A DNA stretch of 53,689 nt from Saccoglossus kowalevskii (taxonomy: Eukaryota > Hemichordata > Enteropneusta > Harrimaniidae): contig NW_003139501.1 of NCBI RefSeq assembly GCF_000003605.2, positions 1 through 53,689 of the forward strand. The letters are read 5' to 3'. Below, piece after piece: positions 1 to 53,689 of this stretch. The translations under genes and the position numbers were made by a program. The notes below the pieces were generated by a model. That model had not been told where the DNA came from. It ran no database searches and worked only from the letters and a program-made list of their open reading frames with translations. Each line of letters begins with the position of its first letter. Position 1 is the stretch's first letter.

Positions 1-200
1 AGTCCTGCCAGTGGAATTTATTGATTGTAGTATATTTTCCAGCCCTGCCACTGGAATTCATGGACTGTATTATATATTTCAGCCCTGCCAGTGGAATTCA
101 TGCATTGTAGTATATATTGCACCCTTTCTGTAGATTCCATGCATTGTTGTATCTATTGCAACCATGTCAGTGAAATTTATGCATTGCAGTGTCTATTGCA
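1..200 (+). repeat. M marker block, copy 1 (5'-truncated by window start)
   Basis: The window opens inside the most diverged block of the array. Diagnostic variants in order are AGTCCTGCC, ATTGATTG, TCCAGCCCTGCCACTGG, GGACTGTATT, ACCCTTTCTGTAGATTCC, a GTTGTATC monomer, CAACCATGTCAGTGAAA and GCATTGCAGTG. The same series recurs near 12,040, 19,100, 41,185, 47,521, 49,272, 51,942 and 53,579. Together with the next block it matches 41,185-41,777 at a constant offset of 41,184. Confidence 0.9.
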
Positions 201-240
201 GCCCTGCCAGTGGAATTCATGCATTGTAGTATCTATTGCA
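201..240 (+). repeat. Consensus monomer (type example)
   Basis: This copy matches the commonest base at every position. It has 9 G, 9 C, 9 A and 13 T, no CpG, one EcoRI site and one ATGCAT palindrome directly after it. Variants with CTACTGCAG instead of CTATTGCAG (for example near 395, 3,065, 15,425, 35,215 and 36,290) gain a PstI site. Each monomer also holds TATTGCAG, which resembles a 3' splice site by chance. Confidence 0.95.
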
Positions 241-600
241 GCCCTGCCAGTGGAATTCATGGATTGTAGTATCTATTGCAGCCCTTTCAGTGGAATTCAT
301 GCATTGTAGTATCTATTGCAGCCCTGCCAGTGGGAATCGTGGATTGTAGTATATATTTCAGCCCTATCAGTGGGATTCATGCATTGTGGTATCTACTGCA
401 GGCCTTTCAGTGGAATTCATGCATTATAGTATCTATTGCAACCCTGCCAGTTGAATTCATGTATTGTAGTATCTATTGCAGCCCTTTCAGTGGAATTCAT
501 GCATTGTGGTATCTATTGCAGCCCTGCCAGTGGAATTCATGCATTGTAGTATCTATTGCAGCCCTGCCAGTGGAATTCATGCATTTTAGTATCTATTGCA
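201..600 (+). repeat. Private block shared only with 41,385-41,777
   Basis: Rare variants mark this stretch: GTGGGAATCGTGGATTG near 331, CAGCCCTATCAGTGGGATTC near 361, TCTACTGCAGGCC near 391, and CAACCCTGCCAGTTGAATTC near 440. All but the AGGCC variant recur in the same order after the M block at 41,275-41,384, and I found them nowhere else in the window. The match ends near 593, and monomers with one-base length changes follow at about 611-690. Confidence 0.85.
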
Positions 601-2240
601 GCCCTGCCAGTGGAAATTCATGGATTGTATTATATATTGCAGCCGTGTCAGTGGAATTCATGCATTGTAGTATCTATGCAGCCTGCCAGTGGAATTCATG
701 CATTGTAGTATATATTGCACCCTGTCAGTGTAATTCATGCATTGTAGTATCCATTGCAGCCCTGCCAGTGGAATTCATGCATTGTAGTATATATTGCACT
801 CTGTCAGTGTAGTTCATGCTTTGTAGTATCTATTGCAGCCCTGCCAGTGGCATTCATGCATTGTAGTATATATTGCATCCCTGCCAGTTGCATTCATGCA
901 TTGTAGTATATATTGCACCCTGTCAGTGTAATTCATGCATTGTAGTATCTATTGCAGCCCTGTCAGTGGAATTCATGCAGTGTAGTATATATTGCAGCCC
1001 TGCCAGTGGAATTCATGCATTGTAGTATCTATTGCAGTCCTGCCAGTGGAATTCATGCATTGTAGTATCTATTGCAGCCCTGTCAGTGGAATTCATGCAG
1101 TGTAGTGTCCATTGAAGCCCTGTCAGTTGAATTCATGCTTTGTAGTACCTATTGCACCCCTGCCAGTGGCATTCATGCATTGTAGTATATATTGCACCCA
1201 GTCAGTGGAATTCATGCAATGTAGTATCTATTGCAGCCCTGTCAGTGGAATCCATGCAGTGTAGTGTCCATTGCAGCCCTGTCAGTGGAATTCATGCTTT
1301 TTAGTATCTATTGCATTCCTGCCAGTGGCATTCATGCATTGTAGTATATATGGCATCTCTGCCCAGTGGCATTCATGCATTGTAGTATATATTGCACCCT
1401 GTCAGTGTAATTCATGCTTTGTAGTATCTATTGCAGCCCTGCCAGTGGCATTCATGCATTGTAGTATATATTGTATCCCTGCCAGTGGCATTCATGCATT
1501 GTAGTATATATTGCACCCTGTCAGTGTAATTCATGCATTGTAGTATCTATTGCAGCCCTGCCAGTGGAATTCATGCATTGTAGTATCTATTGCAGCCCTG
1601 CCAGTGGAATTCATGCATTGTAGTATCCATTGCAGCCCTGCCAGTGGAATTCATGCATTGTAGTATATATTGCACCCTGTCATTGTAATTCATGCTTTGT
1701 AGTATCTATTGCAGCCCTGCCAGTGGCATTCATGCATTGTAGTATCTATTGCAGCCCTGCCAGTGGAATTCATACATTGTAGTATATATTGCACCCTGTC
1801 AGTGTAATTCATACATTGTATTATCTATTACAGCCCTGTCAGTGGAATTCATGCAGTGTAGTATATATTGCAGCCCTGCCAGTGGAATTCATGCATTGTA
1901 GTATCTATTGCAGCCCTGCCAGTGGAATTCATGCATTGTAGTATCTATTGCAGCCCTGTCAGTGGAATTCATGCAGTGTAGTGTCCATTGAAGCCCTGTC
2001 AGTGGCATTCATGCAGTGTAGTATATATTGCACCCTGTCAGTAGAATTCATGCAATGTAGTATCTATTGCAGCCCTGTCAGTGGAATTCATGCAGTGTAG
2101 TGTCCATTGCAGCCCTGTCAGTGGAATTCATGCTTTGTAGTATCTATTGCAGCCCTGCCAGTGGCATTCATGCATTGTAGTATATATTGCAGCCCTGCCA
2201 GTGTAATTCATGCATTGTAGTGTATATTGAAGCCCTGTCA
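600..2240 (+). repeat. B/P mixed block with many 39-bp monomers
   Basis: 40-bp and 39-bp monomers alternate here. B variants (GGCATTC, GCATCTCTGCC or GCATCCCTGCC, and TGTATCCC near 1,472) mix with P variants (GCAGTGTAGTGTCC near 1,101 and 1,971, then CAGTAGAATTC). Off-length monomers sit near 611 (extra A), 675-684 (T and C missing) and 1,352 (TGGCATCTCTGCCC). A GTACC/CACCCCTGCC pair near 1,140 links this part to the 917-bp units at 27.7-29.4 kb. There is no gene or unique DNA. Confidence 0.85.
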
Positions 2241-2860
2241 GTGGAATTCATGCATTGTAGTATCTATTGCAGCCCTGCCAGTGGAATTCATGCTTTGTAG
2301 TATCTATTGCAGCCCTGCCAGTGGAATTCATGGATTGTATTATATATTGCAGCCCTGCCAGTGTAATTCATGCATTGTAGTATCTATTGCAGCCCTGTCA
2401 GTGGAATTCATGCATTGTAGTATCTATTGCAGCCCTGCCAGTGGAATTCATGCATTGTAGTATCTATTGCAGCCCTGCCAGTGGAATTCATGGATTGTAT
2501 TATATATTGCAGCCGTGTCAGTGGAATTCATGCAATGTAGTATCTATTGCAGCGCTGCCAATGAAATTCCCGCATTGTAGTATATATTGCAGCCCTGTCA
2601 GTGGAATTCATACATTGTAGTATCTATTGCAGCCCTGCCAGTGGAATTCATGCATTGTAGTGTATATTGAAGCCCTTTCAGTGGAATTCATGCATTGTAG
2701 TATATATTGCAGCCCTTTCAGTGGAATTCATGCATTGTAGTATATATTGCAGCCCTGCCAGTGGAATTCATGCATTGTAGTATATATTGCAGCCCTGCCA
2801 GTGGAATTCCCGCATTGTAGTATATATTGCACCCTGTCAGTGGAATTCATGCATTGTGGT
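2240..2860 (+). repeat. F block, CpG-bearing
   Basis: This is the first clear F block. In order it shows GGATTGTATTATATATTG, AGCCGTGTCAG with a CpG at 2,514, GCAATG, AGCGCTGCCAATG with a CpG at 2,553, TTCCCGCATTG with a CpG at 2,571, CATACATTG, GTGTATATTGAAG and two CCCTTTCAG monomers. The three CpGs fall within about 60 bp, in an array whose consensus has none. Confidence 0.85.
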
Positions 2861-3480
2861 ATTAATTGCAGCCCTGTCAGTGGAATTCATGCATGGTAGT
2901 AAATATTGCAGCCCTGTCAGTGGAATTCATGCTTTGTAGTATCTATTGCAGCACTGCCAATGGAATTCATGCATTGTGGTATTTATTGCAGCCCTTTCAT
3001 TGGAATTCATGCATTGTAGTATCTATTGCAGCCCTTTCAGTGGAATTCATGCATTGTAGTATATACTGCAGCCCTGCCAGTGGAATTCATGCATTGTAGT
3101 ATCTATTGCAGCCCTGCCAGTGGAATTCATGCATTGTAGTATCTATTGCAGCCCTGCCAGTGGAATTCACGGTTTGTAGTATTTATTGCAGCCCTGTCAG
3201 TGTAATTCATGCATTGTAGTATATATTGCAGCCCTGTCAGTGGAATTCATGCTTTGTAGTATCTATTACAGCACTGCCAATGGTATTCATGCATTGTGGT
3301 ATTTATTGCAGCCCTGTCATTGGAATTTATGCATTGTAGTGTCTATTGCAGCCCTGCCAGTGGAATTCATGCAGTGTAGTATCTCTTGCAGCCATGTCAG
3401 TGGAATTCATGCATTGTGGTATTAATTGCAGCCCTGTCAGTGGAATTCATGCATTGTAGTATATATTGCACCCTGTCAGT
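2860..3480 (+). repeat. S block, two rounds
   Basis: S variants appear in order: GCATGGTAGTAAATATTG, GCTTTG, GCACTGCCAATGG, GCATTGTGGTATTTATTG and CCCTGTCATTGG. The TAG at monomer positions 27-29 is TGG in several copies. The second round, about 3,190-3,481, matches about 30,563-30,854 at an offset of 27,373, including the rare TATTACAGCACTGCC and GGAATTTATGC variants. Confidence 0.85.
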
Positions 3481-3540
3481 GTAATTCATGCATTGTAGTA
3501 TCTATTGCAGCCCTGCCAGTGGAATTCATGCATTGTAGTA

Positions 3541-4600
3541 TAAATTGCACCCTGTCAGTGTAATTCATGCATTGTAGTATCTATTGCAGCCCTGCCAGTG
3601 GAATTCATGCATTGTAGTATCTATTGCAGCCCTGCCAGTGTAATTCATACATTGTAGTATCTATTGCAGCCCTGCCAGTGTAATTCATGCATTGTAGTAT
3701 CTATTGCAGCCCTGCCAGTGGAATTCATGCATTGTAGTATCTATTGCAGCCCTGCCAGTGTAATTCATGCATTGTATTATTTATTACAGCCCTGTCAGTG
3801 GAATTCATGCAGTGTAGTATATATTGCAGCCCTGCCAGTGGAATTCATGCATTGTAGTATCTATTGCAGCCCTGCCAGTGGAATTCATGCATTGTAGTAT
3901 CTATTGCAGCCCTGTCAGTGAAATTCATGCAGTGTAGTGTCCATTGAAGCCCTGTCAGTGGCATTCATGCAGTGTAGTATATATTGCACCCTGTCAGTAG
4001 AATTCATGCAATGTAGTATCTATTGCAGCCCTGTCAGTGGAATTCATGCAGTGTAGTGTCCATTGCAGCCCTGTCAGTGGAATTCATGCTTTGTAGTATC
4101 TATTGCAGCCCTGCCAGTGGCATTCATGCATTGTAGTATATATTGCAGCCCTGCCAGTGTAATTCATGCATTGTAGTGTATATTGAAGCCCTTTCAGTGG
4201 AATTCATGCAGTGTAGTGTCCATTGAAGCCCTGTCAGTGGCATTCATGCAGTGTAGTATATATTGCACCCTGTCAGTAGAATTCATGCAATGTAGTATCT
4301 ATTGCAGCCCTGTCAGTGGAATTCATGCAGTGTAGTGTCCATTGCAGCCCTGTCAGTGGAATTCATGCTTTGTAGTATCTATTGCAGCCCTGCCAGTGGC
4401 ATTCATGCATTGTAGTATATATTGCAGCCCTGCCAGTGTAATTCATGCATTGTAGTATCTATTGCAGCCCTGCCAGTGGAATTCATGCATTGTAGTATCT
4501 ATTGCAGCCCTGCCAGTGGAATTCATGGATTGTATTATATATTGCAGCTGTGTCAGTGGAATTCATGCAATGTAGTATCTATTGCAGCGCTGCCAATGAA
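3541..4600 (+). repeat. Duplicated 1.06-kb P-type segment, copy 1 (pairs with 5,815-6,874)
   Basis: From TAAATTGCACC at 3,541 the sequence repeats at 5,815 with a constant offset of 2,274, up to the GCGCTGCCAATGAAA monomer. The second copy then changes to GAAATTTATGC where this one has TTCCCGCATTG. Internal landmarks are TTATTTATTACAG, AGTGAAATTC, two GTGTCCATTGAAG rounds and CAGTAGAATTC. Part of it (about 3,450-3,890) also matches 42,362-42,802 at an offset of 38,912. Confidence 0.88.
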
Positions 4601-5456
4601 ATTCCCGCATTGTAGTATATATTGCAGCCCTGTCAGTGGAATTCATACATTGTAGTATCTATTGCAGCCCTGCCAGTGGAATTCATGCATTGTAGTGTAT
4701 ATTGAAGCCCTTTCAGTGGAATTCATGCATTGTAGTATATATTGCAGCCCTTTCAGTGGAATTCATGCATTGTAGTATATATTGCAGCCCTGCCAGTGGA
4801 ATTCATGCATTGTAGTATCTATTGCAGCCCTGCCAGTGGAATTCACGCATTGTAGTATATATTGCACCCTGTCAGTGGAATTCATGCATTGTGGTATTAA
4901 TTGCAGCCCTGTCAGTGGAATTCATGCATGGTAGTAAATATTGCAGCCCTGTCAGTGGAATTCATGCTTTGTAGTATCTATTGCAGCACTGCCAATGGAA
5001 TTCATGCATTGTGGTATTTATTGCAGCCCTGTGAGTGTAATTCATGCATTGTAGTATCTATTGCAGCCCTCTCAGTGGAATTCATGCTTTGTAGTATCTA
5101 TTGCAGCACTGCCAATGGTATTCATGCATTGTGGTATTTATTGCAGCCCTGTCATTGGAATTCATGCATTGTAGTGTCTATTGCAGCCCTGCCAGTGGAA
5201 TTCATGCAGTGTAGTATCTCTTGCAGCCCTGTCGGTGGAATTCATGCATTGTGGTATTAATTGCAGCCCTGTCAGTGTAATTCATGCATTGTAGTATCAA
5301 TTGCAGCCCTGTCAGTGGAATTCATGCATTGTAGTATCTATTGCAGCACTGCCAATGGAATTCATGCATTGTGGTATTTATTGCAGCCCTGTCATTGGAA
5401 TTCATGCATTGTAGTGTCTATTGCAGCCCTGCTAGTGGAATTCATGCAGTGTAGTA
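4555..5456 (+). repeat. F/S segment duplicated at 15,558-16,459
   Basis: A run of about 900 bp matches at a constant offset of 11,003. Shared rare changes include CCCTGTGAGTGTAATTC, CCCTCTCAGTGG, CCAATGGTATTC, TATCTCTTGCAG, GTCGGTGGAATTC and TATCAATTGCAG. Differences are few, mostly at the F monomer near 4,597 versus 15,600. The match ends where this copy goes to GGAATTTATGC and the other enters a Q block. Confidence 0.88.
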
Positions 5457-5459
5457 TAT

Positions 5460-5814
5460 ATTGCAGCCCTGCCAGTGGAATTTATGCTTTGTAGTATCTA
5501 TTGCAGCACTGCCAGTGGCATTCATGCATTGTAGTATATATTGCACCCTGTCAGTGTAATTCATGCTTTGTAGTATCTATTGCAGCCCTGCCAGTGGCAT
5601 TCATGCATTGTAGTATATATTGTATCCCTGCCAGTGGAATTCATGCATTGTAGTATATATTGCACCCTGTCAGTGTAATTCATGCATTGTAGTATCTATT
5701 GCAGCCCTGCCAGTGGAATTCATGCATTGTAGTATCTATTGCAGCCCTGCCAGTGGAATTCATGCATTGTAGTATCCATTGCAGCCCTGCCAGTGGCATT
5801 CATGCATTGCAATA
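5460..5814 (+). repeat. B block ending in TAAATT
   Basis: B monomers carry GGCATTC, a TGTATCCCTGCC at 5,621 and TGCAATATAAATTGCA near 5,809. From about 5,530 this region and the start of the next match 9,513-10,018 at an offset of 3,983. The TGCAATATAAATTGCA element is a one-base-imperfect form of the palindrome described for the Q blocks. Confidence 0.8.
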
Positions 5815-6874
5815 TAAATTGCACCCTGTCAGTGTAATTCATGCATTGTAGTATCTATTGCAGCCCTGCCAGTGGAATTCATGCATTGTAGTATCTATTG
5901 CAGCCCTGCCAGTGTAATTCATACATTGTAGTATCTATTGCAGCCCTGCCAGTGTAATTCATGCATTGTAGTATCTATTGCAGCCCTGCCAGTGGAATTC
6001 ATGCATTGTAGTATCTATTGCAGCCCTGCCAGTGTAATTCATGCATTGTATTATTTATTACAGCCCTGTCAGTGGAATTCATGCAGTGTAGTATATATTG
6101 CAGCCCTGCCAGTGGAATTCATGCATTGTAGTATCTATTGCAGCCCTGCCAGTGGAATTCATGCATTGTAGTATCTATTGCAGCCCTGTCAGTGAAATTC
6201 ATGCAGTGTAGTGTCCATTGAAGCCCTGTCAGTGGCATTCATGCAGTGTAGTATATATTGCACCCTGTCAGTAGAATTCATGCAATGTAGTATCTATTGC
6301 AGCCCTGTCAGTGGAATTCATGCAGTGTAGTGTCCATTGCAGCCCTGTCAGTGGAATTCATGCTTTGTAGTATCTATTGCAGCCCTGCCAGTGGCATTCA
6401 TGCATTGTAGTATATATTGCAGCCCTGCCAGTGTAATTCATGCATTGTAGTGTATATTGAAGCCCTTTCAGTGGAATTCATGCAGTGTAGTGTCCATTGA
6501 AGCCCTGTCAGTGGCATTCATGCAGTGTAGTATATATTGCACCCTGTCAGTAGAATTCATGCAATGTAGTATCTATTGCAGCCCTGTCAGTGGAATTCAT
6601 GCAGTGTAGTGTCCATTGCAGCCCTGTCAGTGGAATTCATGCTTTGTAGTATCTATTGCAGCCCTGCCAGTGGCATTCATGCATTGTAGTATATATTGCA
6701 GCCCTGCCAGTGTAATTCATGCATTGTAGTATCTATTGCAGCCCTGCCAGTGGAATTCATGCATTGTAGTATCTATTGCAGCCCTGCCAGTGGAATTCAT
6801 GCATTGTATTATATATTGCAGCTGTGTCAGTGGAATTCATGCAATGTAGTATATATTGCAGCGCTGCCAATGAA
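5815..6874 (+). repeat. Duplicated 1.06-kb P-type segment, copy 2
   Basis: This is the second copy of 3,541-4,600 at an offset of 2,274. It keeps the same order of TTATTTATTACAG, AGTGAAATTC, two P rounds and the GCAGCTGTGTCAG monomer. Between the two copies lie F, S and B blocks, so the larger tandem unit is about 2.27 kb. Confidence 0.88.
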
Positions 6875-8520
6875 ATTTATGCTTTGTAGTATATATTGCA
6901 GCACTGCCAGTGGCATTCATGCATTGTAGTATATATTGCAGCCCTGTCAGTGTAATTCATGCTTTGTAGTATCTATTGCAGCCCTGCCAGTGGAATTCAT
7001 GCATTGTAGTATATATTGCACCCTGTCAGTGTAATTCATGCTTTGTAGTATCTATTGCAGCCCTGCCAGTGGCATTCATGCATTGTAGTATATATTGCAT
7101 CTCTGCCAGTGGCATTCATGCATTGTAGTATATATTGCACCCTGTCAGTGTAATTCATGCTTTGTAGTATCTATTGCAGCCCTGCCAGTGGCATTCATGC
7201 ATTGTAGTATATATTGTATCACTGTCAGTGGCATTCATGCATTGTAGTATATATTGCACCATGTCAGTGTAATTCATGCATTGTAGTATCTATTGCAGCC
7301 CTGCCAGTGGAATTCATGCATTGTAGTATCTATTGCAGCCCTGCCAGTGGAATTCATGCATTGTAGTATCCATTGCAGCCCTGCCAGTGGAATTCATGCA
7401 TTGTAGTATATATTGCACCCTGTCATTGTAATTCATGCTTTGTAGTATCTATTGCAGCCCTGCCAGTGGCATTCATGCATTGCAATATATATTGCACCCT
7501 GTCAGTGTAATTCATACATTGTATTATCTATTACAGCCCTGTCAGTGGAATTCATGCAGTGTAGTATCTATTGCAGCCCTGCCAGTGGAATTCATGCATT
7601 GTAGTATCTATTGCAGCCCTGTCAGTGGAATTCATGCAGTGTAGTGTCCATTGAAGCCCTGTCAGTGGCATTCATGCAGTGTAGTATATATTGCACCCTG
7701 TCAGTAGAATTCATGCAATGTAATATCTATTGCAGCCCTGTCAGTGGAATTCATGCAGTGTAGTGTCCATTGCAGCCCTGTCAGTGGAATTCATGCTTTT
7801 TAGTATCTATTGCAGCCCTGCCAGTGGCATTCATGCATTGTAGTATATATTGCACCCTGTCAGTGGAATTCATGCATTTTAGTATCTATTGCAGCCCTGC
7901 CAGTGGAATTCATGCATTGTAGTATCTATTGCAGCCCTGCCAGTGGAATTCATGCATTGTAGTATCTATTGCAGCCCGGCCAGTGGAATTCATGCATTGT
8001 AGTATCCATTGCAGCCCTGCCAGTGGAATTCATGCATTGTAGTATATATTGCAGCCCTGTCAGTGGAATTTATGCTTTGTAGTATCTATTGCAGCACTGC
8101 CAGTGGCATTCATGCATTGTAGTATATATTGCAGCCCTGTCAGTGTAATTCATGCTTTGTAGTATCTATTGCAGCCCTGCCAGTGGAATTCATGCATTGT
8201 AGTATATATTGCACCCTGTCAGTGTAATTCATGCTTTGTAGTATCTATTGCACCCCTGCCAGTGGCATTCATGCATTGTAGTATATATTGCATCTCTGCC
8301 AGTGGCATTCATGCATTGTAGTATATATTGCACCCTGTCAGTGTAATTCATGCTTTGTAGTATCTATTGCAGCCCTGCCAGTGGCATTCATGCATTGTAG
8401 TATATATTGTATCCCTGCCAGTGGCATTCTTGCATTGTAGTATATATTGCACCCTGTCAGTGTAATTCATGCATTGTAGTATCTATTGCAGCCCTGCCAG
8501 TGGAATTCATGCATTGTAGT
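6875..8520 (+). repeat. B/P block, three rounds
   Basis: Rounds begin with GGAATTTATGCTTTG (near 6,875 and 8,067) and run through GCACTGCCAGTGGC, GCATCTCTGCC (near 7,098 and 8,289) and TGTATCACTG or TGTATCCCTG (7,210 and 8,408). A perfect 16-bp palindrome lies at 7,481-7,496. P variants near 7,630-7,780 include TAATATC instead of TAGTATC. No gene is seen. Confidence 0.83.
7481..7496. repeat. 16-bp perfect palindrome, one of 15 copies
   Basis: TGCAATATATATTGCA equals its own reverse complement. It arises when TTGTAGTATATATTGCA becomes TTGCAATATATATTGCA and lies at the end of a monomer before a 39-bp unit (CACCCTG follows). Other exact copies start at 8,955, 9,274, 10,670, 11,147, 13,020, 16,493, 16,812, 29,951, 32,296, 32,615, 39,814, 46,030, 48,540 and 51,050. 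Near-palindromes with one changed base lie near 5,809 and 9,792. All sit in B, Q or 477-bp units. A role is not known. Confidence 0.9.
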
Positions 8521-9428
8521 ATCTATTGCAGCCCTCTCAGTGGAATTCATGCTTTGTAGTATCTATTGCAGCACTGCCAATGGTATTCATGCATTGTGGT
8601 ATTTATTGCAGCCCTGTCATTGGAATTCATGCATTGTAGTGTCTATTGCAGCCCTGCCAGTGGAATTCATGCAGTGTAGTATCTCTTGCAGCCCTGTCGG
8701 TGGAATTCATGCATTGTGGTATTAATTGCAGCCCTGTCAGTGTAATTCATGCATTGTAGTATCAATTGCAGCCCTGTCAGTGGAATTCATGCATTGTAGT
8801 ATCTATTGCAGCACTGCCAATGGAATTCATGCATTGTGGTATTTATTGCAGCCCTGTCATTGGAATTCATGCATTGTAGTGTCTATTGCAGCCCTGCTAG
8901 TGGAATTCATGCAGTGTAGTATCCATTGCAGCCCTGCCAGTGGCATTCATGCATTGCAATATATATTGCACCCTGTCAGTGTAATTCATGCATTGTAGTA
9001 TCTATTGCAGCCCTGCCAGTGTAATTCATGCATTGTAGTATTCATTGCAGCCCTGCCAGTGTAATTCATACATTGTAGTATCTATTGCAGCCCTGCTAGT
9101 GCAATTCATGCATTGTAGTATATATTGCAGCCCTGCCAGTGGAATTCATGCATTGTAGTATCTATTGCAGCCCTGCCAGTGGAATTCATGCATTGTAGTA
9201 TCTATTGCAGCCCTGCCAGTGGAATTCATGCATTGTAGTATCCATTGCAGCCCTGCCAGTGGCATTCATGCATTGCAATATATATTGCACCCTGTCAGTG
9301 TAATTCATGCATTGTAGTATCTATTGCAGCCCTGCCAATGTAATTCATGCATTGTAGTATTCATTGCAGCCCTGCCAGTGTAATTCATACATTGTAGTAT
9401 CTATTGCAGCCCTGCTAGTGTAATTCAT
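8520..9428 (+). repeat. S plus Q segment duplicated at 16,058-16,966
   Basis: A 909-bp match runs at an offset of 7,538. It holds the S variants CCCTCTCAG, CCAATGGTATTC and GTCGGTGG, then two Q rounds with TTCATTGCAG, CATACATTG, CTGCTAGTGCAATTC and palindromes at 8,955-8,970 and 9,274-9,289. I noted one internal difference, TATATATTG here near 9,120 against TATCTATTG near 16,658. The match ends at GCTTTG here against GCATTG there. Confidence 0.9.
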
Positions 9429-10479
9429 GCTTTGTAGTATCTATTGCAGCCCTGCCAGTGGCATTCATGCATTGTAGTATATATTGCATCTCTGCCAGTG
9501 GCATTCATGCATTGTAGTATATATTGCACCCTGTCAGTGTAATTCATGCTTTGTAGTATCTATTGCAGCCCTGCCAGTGGCATTCATGCATTGTAGTATA
9601 TATTGTATCCCTGCCAGTGGAATTCATGCATTGTAGTATATATTGCACCCTGTCAGTGTAATTCATGCATTGTAGTATCTATTGCAGCCCTGCCAGTGGA
9701 ATTCATGCATTGTAGTATCTATTGCAGCCCTGCCAGTGGAATTCATGCATTGTAGTATCCATTGCAGCCCTGCCAGTGGCATTCATGCATTGCAATATAA
9801 ATTGCACCCTGTCAGTGTAATTCATGCATTGTAGTATCTATTGCAGCCCTGCCAGTGGAATTCATGCATTGTAGTATCTATTGCAGCCCTGCCAGTGTAA
9901 TTCATACATTGTAGTATCTATTGCAGCCCTGCCAGTGTAATTCATGCATTGTAGTATCTATTGCAGCCCTGCCAGTGGAATTCATGCATTGTAGTATCTA
10001 TTTGCAGCCCTGCCAGTGTAATTCATGCATTGTATTATTTATTACAGCCCTGTCAGTGGAAATTCATGCAGTGTAGTATATATTGCAGCCCTGTCAGTGG
10101 AATTCATGCATTGTAGTATCTATTGCAGCCCAGCCAATGGAATTCATGCAGTGTAGTGTCCATTGCAGCCCTGCCAGTCGAATTCATGCATTGTAGTATA
10201 TATTGCAGCCCTGTCAGTGGAATTCATGCATTGTGGTATATATTGCAGGTCTGCCAGTGGAATTCATGCATTGTAGTATATATTGCAGCCCTGTCAGTGG
10301 AAATCATGCAGTGTAGTATATATTGCAGCCCTGTCAGTGGAATTCATGCATTGTAGTATCTATTGCAGCCCAGCCAAAGGAATTCATGCAGTGTAGTGTC
10401 CATTGCAGCCCTGTCAGTGGAATTCATGCATTGTAGTATCTATTGCAGCCCTGCCAGTGGAATTCATGCATTGTAGCAT
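9429..10479 (+). repeat. B block, then the CAGGTCTGCC block
   Basis: Up to about 10,018 this follows 5,530-6,035. A stray T at 10,001 (TATTTGCAG) and an extra A near 10,060 (GGAAATTC) break the phase. From about 10,180 the rare CAGGTCTGCC (10,246) and GGAAATCATGCAGTG variants match 17,119-17,400 and beyond at an offset of 6,939. Confidence 0.8.
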
Positions 10480-10966
10480 ATATTGCACCCTGTCAGTGTA
10501 ATTCATGCATTGTAGTATACACTGCAGCCCTGCCAGTGGAATTCATGCATTGTAGTATATATTTCACTCTGTCAGTGTAGTTCATGCTTTGTAGTATCTA
10601 TTGCAGCCCTGCCAGTGGCATTCATGCATTGTAGTATATATTGCATCCCTGCCAGTGGCATTCATGCATTGCAATATATATTGCACCCTGTCAGTGTAAT
10701 TCATACATTGTATTATCTATTACAGCCCTGTCAGTGGAATTCATGCAGTGTAGTATATATTGCAGCCCTGCCAGTGGAATTCATGCATTGTAGTATCTAT
10801 TGCAGCCCTGCCAGTGGAATTCATGCATTGTAGTATCTATTGCAGCCCTGCCAGTGGAATTCATGGATTGTATTATATATTGCAGCCGTGTCAGTGGAAT
10901 TCATGCAATGTAGTATCTATTGCAGCGCTGCCAATGAAATTCCCGCATTGTAGTATATATTGCACC
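10480..10966 (+). repeat. 477-bp higher-order unit, copy 1
   Basis: This is a 12-monomer unit of nine 40-bp and three 39-bp monomers (477 bp). It contains TATACACTGCAG, ATTTCACTCTGTCAG, AGTTCATGCTTTG, a palindrome at 10,670-10,685, TTATCTATTACAG and an F core ending in CCAATGAAATTCCCG. It is followed directly by copy 2 at the same 477-bp offset. Confidence 0.9.
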
Positions 10967-11450
10967 CTGTCAGTGTAATTCATGCATTGTAGTATACACT
11001 GCAGCCCTGCCAGTGGAATTCATGCATTGTAGTATATATTTCACTCTGTCAGTGTAGTTCATGCTTTGTAGTATCTATTGCAGCCCTGCCAGTGGCATTC
11101 ATGCATTGTAGTATATATTGCATCCCTGCCAGTGGCATTCATGCATTGCAATATATATTGCACCCTGTCAGTGTAATTCATACATTGTATTATCTATTAC
11201 AGCCCTGTCAGTGGAATTCATGCAGTGTAGTATATATTGCAGCCCTGCCAGTGGAATTCATGCATTGTAGTATCTATTGCAGCCCTGCCAGTGGAATTCA
11301 TGCATTGTAGTATCTATTGCAGCCCTGCCAGTGGAATTCATGGATTGTATTATATATTGCAGCCGTGTCAGTGGAATTCATGCAATGTAGTATCTATTGC
11401 AGCGCTGCCAATGAAATTCCCGCATTGTAGTATATATTGCAGCCCTGTCA
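10967..11450 (+). repeat. 477-bp higher-order unit, copy 2
   Basis: This is a direct repeat of 10,490-10,966 at an offset of 477, with the palindrome at 11,147-11,162. Near the right edge copy 1 passes into GCACCCTGTCAGTGTAATTC, while this copy passes into GCAGCCCTGTCAG and CATACATTG, so the tandem stops here. The near identity of adjacent copies suggests a recent local duplication. Confidence 0.9.
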
Positions 11451-12490
11451 GTGGAATTCATACATTGTAGTATCTATTGCAGCCCTGCCAGTGGAATTCA
11501 TGCATTGTAGTGTATATTGAAGCCCTTTCAGTGGAATTCATGCATTGTAGTATATATTGCAGCCCTTTCAGTGGAATTCATGCATTGTAGTATCTATTGC
11601 AGCCCTGCCAGTGGAATTCATGGATTGTATTATATATTGCAGCCGTGTCAGTGGAATTCATGCAATGTAGTATCTATTGCAGCGCTGCCAATGGAATTCC
11701 CGCATTGTAGTATATATTGCACCCTGTCAGTGTAATTCATGCATTGTAGTATCTATTGCGCCCCTGTCAGTGGAATTCATGCATTGTGGTATTAATTGCA
11801 GCCCTGTCAGTGGAATTCATGCATGGTAGTAAATATTGCAGCCCTGTCAGTGGAATTCATGCTTTGTAGTATCTATTGCAGCACTGCCAATGGAATTCAT
11901 GCATTGTGGTATTTATTGCAGCCCTGTCATTGGAATTCATGCATTGTAGTGTCTATTGCAGCCCTGCTAGTGGAATTCATGCAGTGTAGTATCTATTGCA
12001 GCCCTGCCAGTGGAATTCATGCATTGTGGTATCTATTGCAGTCCTGCCAGTGGAATTCATTGATTGTAGTATATATTCCAGCCCTGCCACTGGAATTCAT
12101 GGACTGTATTATATATTTCAGCCCTGCCAGTGGAATTCATGCATTGTAGTATATATTGCACCCTTTCTGTAGATTCCATGCATTGTTGTATCTATTACAA
12201 CCATGTCAGTGAAATTTATGCATTGCAGTGTCTATTGCAGCCCTGCCAGTGGAATTCATGCATTGTAGTATATATTGCAGCCCTGCCAGTGGAATACATG
12301 CATTGTAGTATCCATTGCAGCCCTGCCAGTGGAATTCATGCATTGTAGTATATATTGCAGCCCTGCCAGTGGAATTTATGCTTTGTAGTATCTATTGCAG
12401 CACTGCCAGTGGCATTCATGCATTGAAGTATATATTGCAGCCCTGTCAGTGTAATTCATGCTTTGTAGTATCTATTGCAGCCCTGCCAGT
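11450..12490 (+). repeat. F block then M marker block, copy 2
   Basis: Two F rounds lead through TATTGCGCCCCTGTCAG into M: GCATGGTAGTAAATATTG, TGG monomers, CTGCTAGTGG, AGTCCTGCC, ATTGATTG, CCACTGG, GGACTG and the GTTGTATC monomer. From about 11,700 to 12,490 the sequence matches 18,759-19,549 at an offset of 7,059. Before that the offset is 7,019, because the other copy holds one extra 40-bp monomer. Confidence 0.9.
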
Positions 12491-19549: not shown

Positions 19550-19574
19550 GGCATTCATGCATTGTAGTATATAT

Positions 19575-40260: not shown

Positions 40261-40880
40261 TATTGAAGCCCTTTCAGTGGAATTCATGCATTGTAGTATC
40301 TATTGCAGCCCTTTCAGTGGAATTCATGCATTGTAGTATCTATTGCAGCCCTGCCAGTGGAATTCATGCATTATAGTATCTATTGCAGCCCTGCCAGAGG
40401 AATTCATGGATTGTATTATATATTGCAGCCGTGTCAGTGGAATTCATGCAATGTAGTATCTATTGCAGCGCTGCCAATGGAATTCCCGCATTGTAGTATA
40501 TATTGCAGCCCTGTCAGTGGAATTCATACATTGTAGTATCTATTGCAGCCCTGCCAGTGGAATTCATGCATTGTAGTGTATATTGAAGCCCTTTCAGTGG
40601 AATTCATGCATTGTAGTATATATTGCAGCCCTTTCAGTGGAATTCATGCATTGTAGTATATATTGCAGCCCTGCCAGTGGAATTCATGCATTGTAGTATC
40701 TATTGCAGCCCTGCCAGTGGAATTCATGCATTGTAGTATCTATTGCAGCCCTGCCAGTGGAATTCATGGATTGTATTATATATTGCAGCCGTGTCAGTGG
40801 AATTCATGCAATGTAGTATCTATTGCAGCGCTGCCAATGGAATTCCCGTATTGTAGTATATATTGCACCCTGTCAGTGTA
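40261..40880 (+). repeat. F block, exact 360-bp spacing
   Basis: Two F cores (AGCGCTGCC) start at 40,467 and 40,827, exactly 360 bp or nine monomers apart. The surrounding monomers are in the same order in both rounds: CCCGCATTG or CCCGTATTG, CATACATTG, GTGTATATTGAAG, two CTTTCAG, two or more consensus, GGATTG, CCGTGTCAG, GCAATG. Confidence 0.88.
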
Positions 40881-41777: not shown

Positions 41778-42820
41778 TATGCAGCCCTGTCAGTGGAATT
41801 CATGCTTTGTAGTATCCATTGCAGCCCTGCCAATGGTATTCATGCATTGTGGTATTTATTGCAGCCCTGTCATTGGAATTCATGCATTGTAGTGTCTATT
41901 GCAGCCCTGCCAGTGGAATTCATGCAGTGTAGTATCTCTTGCAGCCCTGTCAGTGGAATTCATGCATTGTGGTATTAATTGCAGCCCTGTCAGTGTAATT
42001 CATGCATTGTAGTATCAATTGCAGCCCTGTCAGTGGAATTCATGCATTGTAGTATCTATTGCAGCACTGCCAATGGAATTCATGCATTGTGGTATTTATT
42101 GCAGCCCTGTCATTGGAATTCATGCATTGTAGTGTCTATTGCAGCCCTGCTAGTGGAATTCATGCAGTGTAGTATCTATTGCAGCCCTGTCAGTGTAATT
42201 CATGCATTGTAGTATCCATTGCAGCCCTGCCAGTGGAATTCATGCATTGTAGTATATATTGCACTCTGTCAGTGTAGTTCATGCTTTGTAGTATCTATTG
42301 CAGCCCTGCCAGTGGCATTCATGCATTGTAGTATATATTGCATCCCTGCCAGTGGCATTCATGCATTGTAGTATATATTGCACCCTGTCAGTGTAATTCA
42401 TGCATTGTAGTATCTATTGCAGCCCTGCCAGTGGAATTCATGCATTGTAGTATAAATTGCACCCTGTCAGTGTAATTCATGCATTGTAGTATCTATTGCA
42501 GCCCTGCCAGTGGAATTCATGCATTGTAGTATCTATTGCAGCCCTGCCAGTGTAATTCATACATTGTAGTATCTATTGCAGCCCTGCCAGTGTAATTCAT
42601 GCATTGTAGTATCTATTGCAGCCCTGCCAGTGGAATTCATGCATTGTAGTATCTATTGCAGCCCTGCCAGTGTAATTCATGCATTGTATTATTTATTACA
42701 GCCCTGTCAGTGGAATTCATGCAGTGTAGTATATATTGCAGCCCTGCCAGTGGAATTCATGCATTGTAGTATCTATTGCAGCCCTGCCAGTGGAATTCAT
42801 GTATTGTAGTATCTATTGCA
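41778..42820 (+). repeat. S then mixed block
   Basis: The S part (TATCTCTTGCAG, TATCAATTGCAG, CTGCTAGTGG) follows the order of 8,530-8,930, but carries CAGTGG where that copy has CGGTGG. The part 42,362-42,802 matches 3,450-3,890 at an offset of 38,912, including TATAAATTGCACC and TTATTTATTACAG. Confidence 0.85.
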
Positions 42821-44850
42821 GCCCTGCCAGTGGAATTCATGTATTGTAGTGTATATTGAAGCCCTTTCAGTGGAATTCATGCATTGTAGTATCTATTTCA
42901 GCCCTTTCAGTGGAATTCATGCATGGTAGTATCTATTGCAGCCCTGCCAGTGGAATTCATGTTTTGTAGTATCTATTGCAGCCCTGCCAGTGGAATTCAT
43001 GCATTGTAGTATCTATTGCAGCCCTGCCAGTGGAATTCATGGATTGTATTATATATTGCAGCGGTGTCAGTGGAATTCATGCAATGTAGTATCTATTGCA
43101 GCGCTGCCAATGGAATTCCCGCATTGTAGTATATATTGCAGCCCTGTCAGTGGAATTCATGCAATGTAGTATCTATTGCAGCCCTGTCAGTGGAATTCAT
43201 ACATTGTAGTATATATTGCACCCTGTCAGTGGAAATCATGCTTTGTGGTACCTATTGCAGCCCAGCCAGTGGAATTCATGCAGTGTAGTATCTGTTGCAG
43301 CCCTGTCAGTGGAATTCATGCATTGTAGTATATATTGCACCCTGTCAGTGGAATTCATGCATTGTGGTATTAATTGCAGCCCTGTCAGTGGAATTCATGC
43401 ATTGTAGTATATATTGCACCCTGTCAGTGGAATTCATTCTTTGTAGTATCTATTGCAGCACTGCCAATGGAATTCATGTATTGTAGTATATATTGCAGCC
43501 CTGTCAGTGTAATTCATGCATTGTAGTATCTATTGCAGCCCTGTCAGTGGAATTCATGCTTTGTAGTGTCTATTGCAGCCCTGCCAGTGGAATTCATAAA
43601 GTGTAGTATCTATTGCAGCCCTGTCAGTGGAATTCATGCATTGTGGTATTAAATGCAGCCCTGTCAGTGGAATTCATGCATTGAAGTATATATTGCACCC
43701 TGTCAGTGGAATTCATGCATTGTGGTATTAATTGCACCCTGTCAGTGGAATTCATGCATTGTAGTATATATTGCACCCTGTCAGTGGAATTCATGCATTG
43801 TAGTATCTATTGCACTCTGTCAGTGGAATTCATGCCTTGTAGTATCTATTGCACCTTGTCAGTGGAATTCATGCTTTGTAGTACCTATTGCAGCTCAGCC
43901 AGTGGAATTCATGCAGTGTAGTATCTGTTGCAGCCCTGTCAGTGGAATTCATGCATTGTGGTATTAAATGCAGCCCTCTCAGTTGAATTCATGCATTGTA
44001 GTATATATTGCAGCCCTGCCAGTGGAATTCATGTATTGTAGTGTATATTGAAGCCCTTTCAGTGGAATTCATGCATTGTAGTATCTATTGCAGCCCTTTC
44101 AGTGGAATTCATGCATTGTAGTATCTATTGCAACCCTGCCAGTGGAATTCATGCATTGTAGTATCTATTGCAGCCCTGCCAGTGGAATTCATGGATTGTG
44201 TTATATATTGCAGCCGTGTCAGTGGAATTCATGCAATGTAGTATCTATTGCAGCGCTGCCAATGGAATTCCCGCACTGTAGTATATATTGCAGCCCTGTC
44301 AGTGGAATTCATACATTGTAGTATCTATTGCAGCCCTGCCAGTGGAATTCATGCATTGTAGTGTATATTGAAGCCCTTTCAGTGGAATTCATGCATTGTA
44401 GTATCTATTGCAGCCCTTTCAGTGGAATTCATGCATTGTAGTATCTATTGCAGCCCTGCCAGTGGAATTCATGTATTGTAGTATCTATTGCAGCCCTGCC
44501 AGTGGAATTCATGCATTGTAGTATCTATTGCAGCCCTGCCAGTGGAATTCATGGATTGTAATATATATTGCAGCCGTGTCAGTGGATTTCATGCAATGTA
44601 GTATCTATTGCAGCGCTGCCAATGGAATTCCCGCATTGTAGTATATATTGCAGCCCTGTCAGTGGAATTCATGCAATGTAGTATCTATTGCAGCCCTGCC
44701 AGTGGAATTCATGCATTGTAGTATATATTGCACTCTGTCAGTGTAGTTCATGCTTTGTAGTATCTATTGCAGCCCTGCCAGTGGCATTCATGCATTGTAG
44801 TATATATTGCATCCCTGCCAGTGGCATTCATGCATTGTAGTATATATTGC
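42821..44850 (+). repeat. 2.0-kb F/T/F segment, copy 2
   Basis: This is the partner of 25,150-27,140. It holds one extra GCAATG monomer near 43,150 and private changes GCATGGTAG near 42,922 and CATGTTTTG near 42,960. F cores near 44,262 and 44,622 are 360 bp apart. The stretch equivalent to the indel-rich 26,885-27,025 is in perfect 40-bp phase here. Confidence 0.9.
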
Positions 44851-46750: not shown

Positions 46751-47829
46751 GTATCTATTGCAGCCCTTTCAGTGGAATTCATGCATTGTAGTATCTATTG
46801 CAGCCCTGCCAGTGGAATTCATGCATTGTAGTATCTATTGCAGCCCTGCCAGTGGAATTCATGGATTGTATTATATATTGCAGCCGTGTCAGTGGAATTT
46901 ATGCAATGTAGTATCTATTGCAGCGCTGCCAATGAAATTCCCGCATTGTAGTATATATTGCAGCCCTGTCAGTGGAATTTATACATTGTAGTATCTATTG
47001 CAGCCCTGCCAGTGGAATTCATGCATTGTAGTGTATATTGAAGCCCTTTCAGTTGAATTCATGCATTGTAGTATATATTGCAGCCCTTTCAGTGGAATTC
47101 ATGCATTGTAGTATATATTGCAGCCCTGCCAGTGGAATTCATGCAATGTAGTATCTATTGCAGCACTGCCAATGGAATTCCCGCATTGTAGTATATATTG
47201 CACCCTGTCAGTGTAATTCATGCATTGTAGTATCTATTGCGCCCCTGTCAGTGGAATTCATGCATTGTGGTATTAATTGCAGCCCTGTCAGTGGAATTCT
47301 TGCATGGTAGTAAATATTGCAGCCCTGTCAGTGGAATTCATGCTTTGTAGTATCTATTGCAGCACTGCCAATGGAATTCATGCATTGTGGTATTTATTGC
47401 AGCCCTGTCATTGGAATTCATGCATTGTAGTGTCTATTGCAGCCCTGCTAGTGGAATTCATGCTGTGTAGTATCTATTGCAGCCCTGCCAGTGGAATTCA
47501 TGCATTGTGGTATCTATTGCAGTCCTGCCAGTGGAATTCATTGATTGTAGTATATATTCCAGCCCTGCCACTGGAATTCATGGACTGTATTATATATTTC
47601 AGCCCTGCCAGTGGAATTCATGCATTGTAGTATATATTGCACCCTTTCTGTAGATTCCATGCATTGTTGTATCTATTGCAACCATGTTAGTGAAATTTAT
47701 GCATTGCAGTGTCTATTGCAGCCCTGCCAGTGGAATTCATGCATTGTAGTATCTATTGCAGCCCTGCCAGTGGAATTCGTGCATTGTAGTATCCATTGCA
47801 GCCCTGCCAGTGGAATTCATGCATTGTAG
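46751..47829 (+). repeat. F block then M marker block, copy 5
   Basis: An F core with CCAATGAAATTCCCG near 46,930 is followed by M landmarks from about 47,277 to 47,720. The region 46,865-48,045 matches 48,656-49,796. The offset is 1,791, then 1,751 after a monomer near 47,200 that is missing from the other copy, so this is a tandem of about 1.75-1.79 kb. Confidence 0.88.
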
Positions 47830-48640: not shown

Positions 48641-49796
48641 CAGTGGAATTCATGCATTGTATTATATATTGCATCCGTGTCAGTGGAATTCATGCAATGT
48701 AGTATCTATTGCAGCGCTGCCAATGAAATTCCCGCATTGTAGTATATATTGCAGCCCTGTCAGTGGAATTCATACATTGTAGTATCTATTGCAGCCCTGC
48801 CAGTGGAATTCATGCATTGTAGTGTATATTGAAGCCCTTTCAGTGGAATTCATGCATTGTAGTATATATTGCAGCCCTTTCAGTGGAATTCATGCATTGT
48901 AGTATATATTGCAGCCCTGCCAGTGGAATTCATGCATTGTAGTATCTATTGCAGCCCTGCCAGTGGAATTCCCGCATTGTAGTATATATTGCACCCTGTC
49001 AGTGGAATTCATGCATTGTGGTATTAATTGCAGCCCTGTCGGTGGAATTCATGCATGGTAGTAAATATTGCAGCCCTGTCAGTGGAATTCATGCTTTGTA
49101 GTATCTATTGCAGCACTGCCAATGGAATTCATGCATTGTGGTATTTATTGCAGCCCTGTCATTGGAATTCATGCATTGTAGTGTCTATTGCAGCCCTGCT
49201 AGTGGAATTCATGCAGTGTAGTATCTATTGCAGCCCTGCCAGTGGAATTCATGCATTGTGGTATCTATTGCAGTCCTGCCAGTGGAATTCATTGATTGTA
49301 GTATATATTCCAGCCCTGCCACTGGAATTCATGGACTGTATTATATATTTCAGCCCTGCCAGTGGAATTCAGGCATTGTAGTATATATTGCACCCTTTCT
49401 GTAGATTCCATGCATTGTTGTATCTATTGCAACCATGTCAGAGAAATTTATGCATTGCAGTGTCTATTGCAGCCCTGCCAGTGGAATTCATGCATTGTAG
49501 TATCTATTGCAGCCCTGCCAGTGGAATTCATGCATTGTAGTATCCATTGCAGCCCTGCCAGTGGAATTCATGCATTGTAGTATCTATTGCAGCCCGGCCA
49601 GTGGAATTCATGCATTGTAGTATCTATTGCAGCACTGCCAGTGGCATTCATGCATTCTAGTATATATTGCAGCCCTGTCAGTGTAATTCATGCTTTGTAG
49701 TATCTATTGCAGCCCTGCCAGTGGAATTCATGCATTGTAGTATATATTGCACCCTGTCAGTGTAATTCATGCTTTGTAGTATCTATTGCAGCCCTG
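48641..49796 (+). repeat. F block then M marker block, copy 6
   Basis: This copy carries GTCGGTGG at 49,034 (normally GTCAGTGG), CAGGCATTG near 49,370 and GTCAGAGAAA near 49,437. The part 48,695-49,360 matches 53,002-53,667 at an offset of 4,307, with GTCGGTGG shared. The part 49,271-50,340 matches 51,942-53,011 at an offset of 2,671, with CAGGCATTG and GTCAGAGAAA shared. Confidence 0.9.
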
Positions 49797-50550: not shown

Positions 50551-51943
50551 CTCTTTTCAGTGGAATTCATGCTTTGTAGTATATATTGCAGCCTGCCAGT
50601 GGAATTCATGCATTGTAGTATCTATTGCACCTGTCAGTGTAATTCATGTTTTGTAGTATCTATTGCAGCCCTGCCAGTGGCATTCATGCATTGTAGTATA
50701 TATTGCATCTCTGCCAGTGGCATTCATGCATTGTAGTATATATTGCACCCTGTCAGTGTAATTCATGCTTTGTAGTATCTATTGCAGCCCTGCCAGTGGC
50801 ATTCATGCATTGTAGTATATATTGTATCCCTGCCAGTGGCATTCATGCATTGTAGTATATATTGCACCCTGTCAGTGTAATTCATGCATTGTAGTATCTA
50901 TTGCAGCCCTGCCAGTGGAATTCATGCATTGTAGTATCTATTGCAGCCCTGCCAGTGGAATTCATGCATTGTAGTATCCATTGCAGCCCTGCCAGTGGAA
51001 TTCATGCATTGTAGTATATATTGCATCCCTGCCAGTGGAATTCATGCATTGCAATATATATTGCACCCTGTCAGTGTAATTCATACATTGTATTATCTAT
51101 TACAGCCCTGTCAGTGGAATTCATGCAGTGTAGTATATATTGCAGCCCTGCCAGTGGAATTCATGCATTGTAGTATCTATTGCAGCCCTGCCAGTGGAAT
51201 TCATGCATTGTAGTATCTATTGCAGCCCTGTCAGTGGAATTCATGCAGTGTAGTGTCCATTGAAGACCTGTCAGTGGCATTCATGCAGTGTAGTATATAT
51301 TGCACCCTGTCAGTAGAATTCATGCAATGTAGTATCTATTGCAGCCCTGTCAGTGGAATTCATGCAGTGTAGTGTCCATTGCAGCCCTGTCAGTGGAATT
51401 CATGCTTTGTAGTATCTATTGCAGCCCTGCCAGTGGCATTCATGCATTGTAGTATATATTGCAGCCCTGCCAGTGTAATTCATGCATTGTAGTGTATATT
51501 GAAGCCCTTTCAGTGGAATTCATGCATTGTAGTATATATTGCAGCCCTTTCAGTGGAATTCATGCATTGTAGTATCTATTGCAGCCCTGCCAGTGGAATT
51601 CATGCATTGTAGTATCTATTGCAGCCCTGCCAGTGGAATTCATGGATTGTATTATATATTGCAGCCGTGTCAGTGGAATTCATGCAATGTAGTATCTATT
51701 GCAGCGCTGCCAATGGAATTCCCGCATTGTAGTATATATTGTAGCCCTGTCAGTGGAATTCATTCATTGTAGTATCTATTGCAGCCCTGCCAGTGGAATT
51801 CATGCATTGTAGTGTATATTGAAGCCCTTTCAGTGGAATTCATGCATTGTAGTATATATTGCAGCCCTTTCAGTGGAATTCATGCATTGTAGTATATATT
51901 GCAGCCCTGCCAGTGGAATTCATGCATTGTAGTATCTATTGCA
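50551..51943 (+). repeat. B/P/F segment, partner of 12,970-13,913
   Basis: Three off-length monomers lie close together at the left (GCTCTTTTCAG near 50,551, GCAGCCTGCC near 50,591, GCACCTGTC near 50,628). From about 51,000 to 51,943 the sequence equals 12,970-13,913 at an offset of 38,030, with GAAGACCTG, GTAGCCC and CATTCATTG. A palindrome lies at 51,050-51,065. The match ends at AGTCCTGCC. Confidence 0.88.
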
Positions 51944-52143
51944 GTCCTGCCAGTGGAATTCATTGATTGTAGTATATATTCCAGCCCTGCCACTGGAATT
52001 CATGGACTGTATTATATATTTCAGCCCTGCCAGTGGAATTCAGGCATTGTAGTATATATTGCACCCTTTCTGTAGATTCCATGCATTGTTGTATCTATTG
52101 CAACCATGTCAGAGAAATTTATGCATTGCAGTGTCTATTGCAG
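51942..52143 (+). repeat. M marker block, copy 7 (5'-truncated by internal breakpoint)
   Basis: Here M starts abruptly at AGTCCTGCC, without the GCATGGTAG and TGG monomers that precede it in copies 2-6. The block follows copy 6 at an offset of 2,671. The truncation point is the same base at which the window itself begins inside M. Confidence 0.88.
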
Positions 52144-53333
52144 CCCTGCCAGAGGAATTCATGCATTGTAGTATCTATTGCAGCCCTGCCAGTGGAATTC
52201 ATGCATTGTAGTATCCATTGCAGCCCTGCCAGTGGAATTCATGCATTGTAGTATCTATTGCAGCCCGGCCAGTGGAATTCATGCATTGTAGTATCTATTG
52301 CAGCACTGCCAGTGGCATTCATGCATTGTAGTATATATTGCAGCCCTGTCAGTGTAATTCATGCTTTGTAGTATCTATTGCAGCCCTGCCAGTGGAATTC
52401 ATGCATTGTAGTATATATTGCACCCTGTCAGTGTAATTCATGCTTTGTAGTATCTATTGCAGCCCTGCCAGTGGAATTCATGCAGTGTAGTGTCCATTGA
52501 ATCCCTGTCAGTGGCATTCATGCAGTGTAGTATATATTGCACCCTGTCAGTAGAATTCATGCAATGTAGTATCTATTGCAGCCCTGTGAGTGGAATTCAT
52601 GCAGTGTAGTGTCCATTGCAGCCCTGTCAGTGGAATTCATGCTTTGTAGTATCTATTGCAGCCCTGCCAGTGGCATTCATGCATTGTAGTATATATTGCA
52701 GCCCTGCCAGTGTAATTCATGCATTGTAGTGTATATTGAAGCCCTGTCAGTGGAATTCATGCATTGTAGTATCTATTGCAGCCCTGCCAGTGGAATTCAT
52801 GCATTGTAGTATCTATTGCAGCCCTGCCAGTGGAATTCATGGATTGTATTATATATTGCAGCCCTGCCAGTGTAATTCATGCATTGTAGTATCTATTGCA
52901 GCCCTGTCAGTGGAATTCATGCATTGTAGTATCTATTGCAGCCCTGCCAGTGGAATTCATGCATTGTAGTATCTATTGCAGCCCTGTCAGTGGAATTCAT
53001 GCAATGTAGTATCTATTGCAGCGCTGCCAATGAAATTCCCGCATTGTAGTATATATTGCAGCCCTGTCAGTGGAATTCATACATTGTAGTATCTATTGCA
53101 GCCCTGCCAGTGGAATTCATGCATTGTAGTGTATATTGAAGCCCTTTCAGTGGAATTCATGCATTGTAGTATATATTGCAGCCCTTTCAGTGGAATTCAT
53201 GCATTGTAGTATATATTGCAGCCCTGCCAGTGGAATTCATGCATTGTAGTATCTATTGCAGCCCTGCCAGTGGAATTCCCGCATTGTAGTATATATTGCA
53301 CCCTGTCAGTGGAATTCATGCATTGTGGTATTA
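52144..53333 (+). repeat. B/P/F segment, partner of 49,473-50,500
   Basis: It continues the 2,671-bp copy up to the GGATTG monomer. One 40-bp monomer is then missing (offset 2,631 from about 52,987), and F monomers lead on to the next M block. GAATCCCTGTCAG near 52,499 and CCCTGTGAGTGG near 52,584 are landmarks. Confidence 0.86.
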
Positions 53334-53689
53334 ATTGCAGCCCTGTCGGTGGAATTCATGCATGGTAGTAAATATTGCAGCCCTGTCAGTGGAATTCATG
53401 CTTTGTAGTATCTATTGCAGCACTGCCAATGGAATTCATGCATTGTGGTATTTATTGCAGCCCTGTCATTGGAATTCATGCATTGTAGTGTCTATTGCAG
53501 CCCTGCTAGTGGAATTCATGCAGTGTAATATCTATTGCAGCCCTGCCAGTGGAATTCATGCATTGTGGTATCTATTGCAATCCTGCCAGTGGAATTCATT
53601 GATTGTAGTATATATTCCAGCCCTGCCACTGGAATTCATGGACTGTATTATATATTTTCAACCCTGCCAATGTAAATTCAGCATTTGTA
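53334..53689 (+). repeat. M marker block, copy 8 (cut by window end)
   Basis: M variants run from GTCGGTGG and GCATGGTAG to AATCCTGCC, ATTGATTG, CCACTGG and GGACTG. The last 40 bases are irregular: TATTTTCAACC has an extra T, GTAAATTCAGC an extra A and a missing T, and GCATTTGTA an extra T. Confidence 0.88.

Follow-up and report, generated by a model that had tools for sequence, protein, structure and literature searches.

Out-of-register exchange is textbook behaviour of satellite DNA, and it forms the background to the analysis of a 53,689-bp stretch of the hemichordate Saccoglossus kowalevskii (NCBI RefSeq assembly GCF_000003605.2, contig NW_003139501.1, positions 1 to 53,689 of the forward strand; the whole stretch is referred to as the window), which is occupied by an array of 40-bp satellite units. 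The random unequal exchange model of Smith (1976) was taken as cited in the parts of PMC8997354 and PMC2834710 used here; an unequal exchange model for satellite arrays, together with its break-induced replication variant, is described in that part of PMC8997354, and conversion and the reshuffled CentO arrays of rice are described in that part of PMC2834710. Satellites of the random-unequal-exchange type, as portrayed in these excerpts, resemble the window in their tandem monomers, in the spread of variants by out-of-register exchange and in their co-duplicated blocks of variants; the window differs in its 40-bp unit and its lack of a dominant higher-order period. The break-induced replication model, in the excerpt of PMC8997354, is similar in that out-of-register restart yields duplications, deletions and complex nested structure, but it concerns human higher-order repeats at kinetochores. 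Reshuffled monomer variants and segmental duplications are shared with rice CentO, for which the part of PMC2834710 used here reports inversions; the window has no inverted copies (20-mers common to the array and its own reverse complement, 0). Human alpha-satellite (general knowledge and the same part of PMC8997354) is likewise a satellite with variant monomers, but its higher-order units occur in many tandem copies, and the window has no dominant unit of this kind.

The array was delimited with Tandem Repeats Finder (TRF) and by wrap-around alignment to the unit. TRF reported a single 40-bp array at 4-53,656 on the + strand (1,346.9 copies, matches 87%; consensus CCTGTCAGTGGAATTCATGCATTGTAGTATCTATTGCAGC), and the alignment resolved 1,349 pieces (2 partial; 391 distinct), most of them 40 bp (1,108) or 39 bp (221) long. 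Copies follow each other head to tail across tens of kilobases without interruption, as in a satellite, with at most 2 inserted bases in every monomer and at least 70% identity to the unit in every full monomer. The array is also non-coding in the manner of a satellite, a call made without a protein-family search: open reading frames are short (22 of at least 100 amino acids in the window, the longest 178 amino acids) and the unit length, 40, is no multiple of 3, and a coding repeat was rejected on these grounds. No Rfam match was obtained for positions 1-5,000.

Shared blocks were scored in monomer register, a link being a block of at least 6 monomers shared at 97% identity or more, and at base level, a diagonal being a gap-free match with a length of 300 bp or more and an identity of 97% or more. 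A total of 536 links of 6-43 monomers was obtained (229 of at least 10 monomers), covering 96.1% of monomers, compared with 0-12 links in 20 shuffles of monomer order. Exactly shared runs reached 24 monomers in the array, whereas the maximum was 4 over 200 order shuffles and 19 over 200 first-order Markov resamplings; Markov resampling, in which neighbour pairs are kept, gave more runs of at least 3 monomers than were observed (mean 633 versus 451) and far fewer of at least 10 (2.7 versus 18). By identity, 34 links fell at 99.5% or above, 151 at 98.5-99.5% and the remaining 351 lower, down to the 97% cut-off, and the links are hence spread over time. Near-tandem links (length above 0.8 of the lag) were rare (11/536, 2.1%). 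At base level, 295 diagonals covered 88.6% of the window at a mean depth of 5.1. An earlier note on this DNA, made from the sequence, had claimed that the same blocks recur with different neighbours, and these counts confirm it; an array shaped by exchange is likewise expected to carry blocks that recur at numerous offsets and next to varying neighbours, as was found. Of the 17 offsets listed in that note, 15 correspond to real diagonals within 1 bp (1,396 was found as 1,397 and 4,268 as 4,267). The other two could not be upheld: offset 360 gave short matches only (longest exact match 101 bp, best 240-bp stretch 97.5%) and offset 1,307 gave no match (best 240-bp stretch 63.8%).

The composite nature of single segments is illustrated by 15,558-16,992 (+ strand, as are all blocks below), for which different partners to left and right had been proposed correctly. 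Its left part (15,616-16,460) is 100% identical to 4,613-5,457, its right part pairs with 8,504-9,453 (99.8%) and 32,074-32,794 (100%), and the sequence on its left (to 15,570) has its partners at 19,651-20,474 and 34,551-35,360. The longest gap-free block, 12,383-13,945, pairs with 39,177-40,739 (1,563 bp, 98.5%), and 945 bp within it (12,970-13,914) also pair at 100% with 51,000-51,944, so that two identical copies lie 38 kb apart, one inside the longer, older shared block and the other not. Further examples are 25,454-26,884, which pairs at offset 17,711 with 43,165-44,595 (1,431 bp, 99.6%), and a young block at offset 2,274, 3,539-4,603, which pairs with 5,813-6,877 (1,065 bp, 99.8%) and contains the longest exactly shared run; one of the rare genuine tandem duplications, 12 monomers long, lies at 10,478-11,441 (offset 477, 487-bp match, 100%). 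Diagonals share their junctions (311 clusters of ends and 280 of beginnings, 66 of each with at least 3 breaks). The phase of the breaks within the unit did not follow a simple null expectation (chi-square 64.6 and 38.8, 7 degrees of freedom), values that were obtained from 295 diagonals with shared junctions and thus not from independent events.

No higher-order period dominates the window. Mean monomer-to-monomer identity was 0.876 and rose to only 0.888 (+0.012) at the best lag, and the best single base offset (26,794) covered 5.8% of the window; the one dominant multi-monomer period that defines higher-order repeats of the alpha-satellite type was not found, nor was a single period explaining most of the window, the observation that the earlier note had named as contrary to its reading. 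The dependence of block sharing on distance was then calculated against random pairing corrected for the partner density of each position. In successive lag classes from lag 6 up, which hold all links but one (535 of 536; the exception has lag 5), observed and expected numbers were 14 and 16.3, 25 and 20.3, 39 and 37.1, 75 and 70.5, 97 and 111.6, 87 and 86.8, 71 and 75.5, 68 and 67.2, and 59 and 50.7. Block sharing is thus independent of distance over 53.7 kb, and the array behaves as well mixed within the window. This fit rests in part on the partner-density correction: with a plain triangular expectation an excess appeared at lags of 800 and above (68 versus 53.0 and 59 versus 36.0), most of which is explained because the two window ends are richer in partners. 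Small register changes between colinear neighbours were 1.55 times more frequent than background. Colinear pairs with equal gaps (26) were not commoner than those with gap differences of 1-2 units (34, 29, 37 and 20), and stood above the 17.6 at gap differences of 4-10 (ratio 1.46).

Our preferred explanation, which we regard as probable though far from assured, is that this non-coding 40-bp satellite array has been turned over by out-of-register recombination with itself, with heavy-tailed event sizes. The partner would be the sister chromatid, the homolog or the same strand; each event would join two points occupying the same phase of the 40-bp unit, at a separation of any number of units, and the stretch between them would be duplicated or deleted. 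Events would range from a few units up to hundreds, and later ones would cut older duplications, leaving a mosaic in which blocks span 6 to 43 monomers and each copy of a block has neighbours of its own. We infer that the main process may be unequal exchange; break-induced replication that restarts out of register would leave junctions of this kind as well and could stand in its place, and ectopic conversion or insertion may contribute to a minor extent. As an instance of satellite turnover the array is well resolved, and it allows the effect of distance on block sharing to be quantified inside a single array. It also suggests that out-of-register exchange over broad step sizes may suffice, with no special mechanism added, to give a mosaic lacking a higher-order period.

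For comparison of processes, arrays of 1,349 or 4,000 units were simulated under unequal exchange, ectopic conversion, or copy-and-insert with deletion. After replacement of 18 initial runs, all of which had used uniform mutation and come out too divergent, a first round comprised 1,090 unfiltered runs, of which the 946 with 20-5,000 links were used; later sets were filtered by mean identity and by how many distinct monomers a run contained (970/2,965, 625/2,930, 475/2,238 and 708/2,972 accepted). The second round contained geometric steps only, heavy-tailed and two-scale exchange were added in the last comparison (1,100 accepted runs), and the 708-run set contained heavy-tailed exchange mixed with conversion or with insertion (hybrids), as well as 195 runs of pure heavy-tailed exchange. 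The observed excess of short lags (<100) was 1.04-fold, compared with simulated exchange medians of 6.0 (mean step 3-15) and 3.8 (mean step 15-40); among exchange runs with a mean step below 40 units, an excess of 1.25 or less was found in 1 of 215 (107 + 108) and, in a second set, in 0 of 97, and short-step unequal exchange is strongly disfavoured by these models. In the last comparison, the classifier (out-of-bag accuracy 0.80) assigned 0.70 to the three exchange variants together, 0.165 to insertion and 0.133 to conversion, and heavy-tailed exchange, with 208 of the 1,100 accepted runs, supplied 12 of the nearest 25. Heavy-tailed runs with flat lags had a median register-change excess of 1.63 (observed 1.55). 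The observed share of nearly identical links, 0.063, compares with flat-lag medians of 0.10-0.12 for exchange, 0.32 for conversion and 0.34 for insertion; a share as low as this was reached by 17/86 exchange, 2/115 conversion and 5/110 insertion flat-lag runs. The share of each model's runs that fell among the nearest 100 was 0.104 for heavy-tailed exchange, 0.075 for the exchange-conversion hybrid, 0.060 for two-scale exchange, 0.040 for conversion, 0.033 for the exchange-insertion hybrid, 0.028 for geometric exchange and 0.016 for insertion. On these models, broad-step exchange appears the most likely main process and a contribution from conversion or insertion quite possible.

Several results count against exchange as the leading process. 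Models and priors were our own, and the heavy-tailed variants were introduced after the first results had been seen, so that the gain they brought is partly fitted. The 20 nearest runs of the first round were 11 insertion, 5 exchange and 4 conversion runs; in the second round, the nearest 25 were 12 conversion, 8 exchange and 5 insertion and the nearest 100 were 44 insertion, 32 exchange and 24 conversion, and the classifier did not separate the models, giving exchange 0.38-0.39, conversion 0.32-0.33 and insertion 0.29-0.30 (out-of-bag accuracy 0.68-0.72). The features least well explained by simple exchange are the short longest block and the equal-gap ratio. A longest block of 52 monomers or fewer (observed 43) occurred in 0/86 exchange flat-lag runs and, in the other set, in 1/30, compared with 43/115 for conversion and 41/110 for insertion. 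For the equal-gap ratio of 1.46, flat-lag medians were 1.28 (conversion), 0.99-1.04 (exchange) and 0.76 (insertion), and the observed value was reached by 50/115, 16/86 and 19/110 runs, respectively, so that the models overlap in this measure. Flat lags, a short longest block and high coverage occurred jointly in 0/1,100 and 0/708 runs; with bands relaxed post hoc, the runs that reached the combination were two of heavy-tailed exchange, one of insertion and three hybrids. The nearest single run overall was an exchange-insertion hybrid (82% exchange, 18% insertion).

Of the alternatives, ectopic gene conversion as the main process, in which tracts of about 0.6-1.6 kb from anywhere in the array would be copied over another place with length unchanged, is unlikely but the most serious single competitor. 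Its flat-lag runs reach the equal-gap ratio more often than those of exchange and, in the proportion given above, combine flat lags with a short longest block; the rise of equal-gap pairs over gap differences of 4-10 and its lead among the 25 nearest runs of the second round speak for it too. Against this stand the failure of equal gaps to exceed differences of 1-2 units, the surplus of nearly identical links, the observed coverage, which was seldom reached (8/115 flat-lag runs), and the low classifier weight in the last comparison. Similarly doubtful is a proposal that blocks of 0.3-1.6 kb were moved independently of distance over at least 53 kb, with no long duplications, chiefly by short-patch copy-and-paste (template switching or circle re-insertion) and not by crossing over. 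Copy-and-insert, by which small pieces would be re-inserted far away, for example out of extrachromosomal circles or through template switching during replication, is quite improbable. Short blocks at any distance with few tandem ones, the identical 945-bp copies lying within an older shared block at one place only, the lead of insertion among the nearest 20 and nearest 100 runs of the two rounds, and the 18% of insertion in the nearest single run are in its favour; its classifier weight was small, observed coverage was reached in only 9/110 flat-lag runs, and the equal-gap ratio of such runs was low. No junction motif was shown for it; the break phases do depart from the simple null, but on diagonals that are not independent.

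The two remaining explanations fare worse. Satellite arrays are hard to assemble, and a mosaic rendered partly false by joining reads from different parts of the array could be imagined, the more so as the final 33 bases (53,657-53,689, + strand; beyond the TRF end at 53,656), which fit the unit poorly and contain several indels in the alignment of the last pieces, resemble either the edge of the array or a contig end of low quality. We consider such an artefact very unlikely: blocks of 97% to 100% identity interlock and many copies differ by variants, whereas from chimaeras one would expect identical copies at a small number of junctions. A plain higher-order repeat governed by a single dominant period, to which the few local tandem doublings (lags 5, 7, 8, 10, 12 and 23) might point, is refuted for the window by the 5.8% covered by the best offset and the 0.012 identity gained at the best lag, and its probability is close to nil. 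Out-of-register exchange over broad steps stays our preferred reading. The earlier suggestion of many overlapping exchanges or conversions, or of block shuffling, is supported in its general form; a special shuffling process is not required because overlapping unequal exchanges alone came near the pattern in simulation, and, judged from one array, exchange is no more than the likeliest of exchange, conversion and insertion to dominate.

The sequence family was not recognised in the collections searched, and its behaviour is ordinary for satellites. Phages and plasmids were searched by distant blastn with window positions 1-4,000 (4,000 of 53,689 bases; low-complexity filter on) without a match, and 37-base and 21-base pieces of the unit had 0 exact matches in viral_contigs and genome_contigs, collections that may omit records of the window's own genome or of very close ones. 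A phage, plasmid, viral or prokaryotic origin, considered as a candidate, was set aside on these searches. The lack of matches among prokaryotes and viruses in the collections searched, together with the character of the array, would suggest a eukaryotic source. Three pieces of the unit, searched as letters in paper texts, were not found there, and a literature search for a known 40-bp satellite, judged from listings, returned nothing recognisable.

Turnover was uneven along the window, as judged from the uneven share of monomers lacking an identical copy: these made up 20-44% per 50-monomer bin at about 22,000-32,000 and 36,000-42,000 and only 2-12% per bin across about 2,000-22,000. A distinctive dimer near both window ends was located by fuzzy match at 8 places (10-81, 12,047-12,120, 19,106-19,179, 41,193-41,265, 47,528-47,601, 49,279-49,352, 51,950-52,023 and 53,587-53,660); the 60 bases that follow are the same (at most 1 difference) after 7 of the 8 copies, and the last copy runs into the degenerate final 33 bases, which may be the array edge or an error at the contig end. 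It is possible that the window samples a small section of a larger array. Within the unit, column 20 (C 771, A 489, T 87) and column 34 (T 689, C 650) are strongly polymorphic, and the G of column 28 is deleted in 208 of 1,347 full monomers; monomer subfamilies exist, because 174 of these 208 carry A at column 20 together with T at column 34. CpG is nearly absent (observed/expected 0.064, 151 CG over 1-53,689), which would be compatible with methylation of the genome, but no CpG is present in the unit to begin with. Over the same positions the strand is T-rich (AT skew -0.19). The EcoRI site GAATTC is retained by 939 of the 1,347 full monomers, and digestion with EcoRI should therefore yield a ladder.

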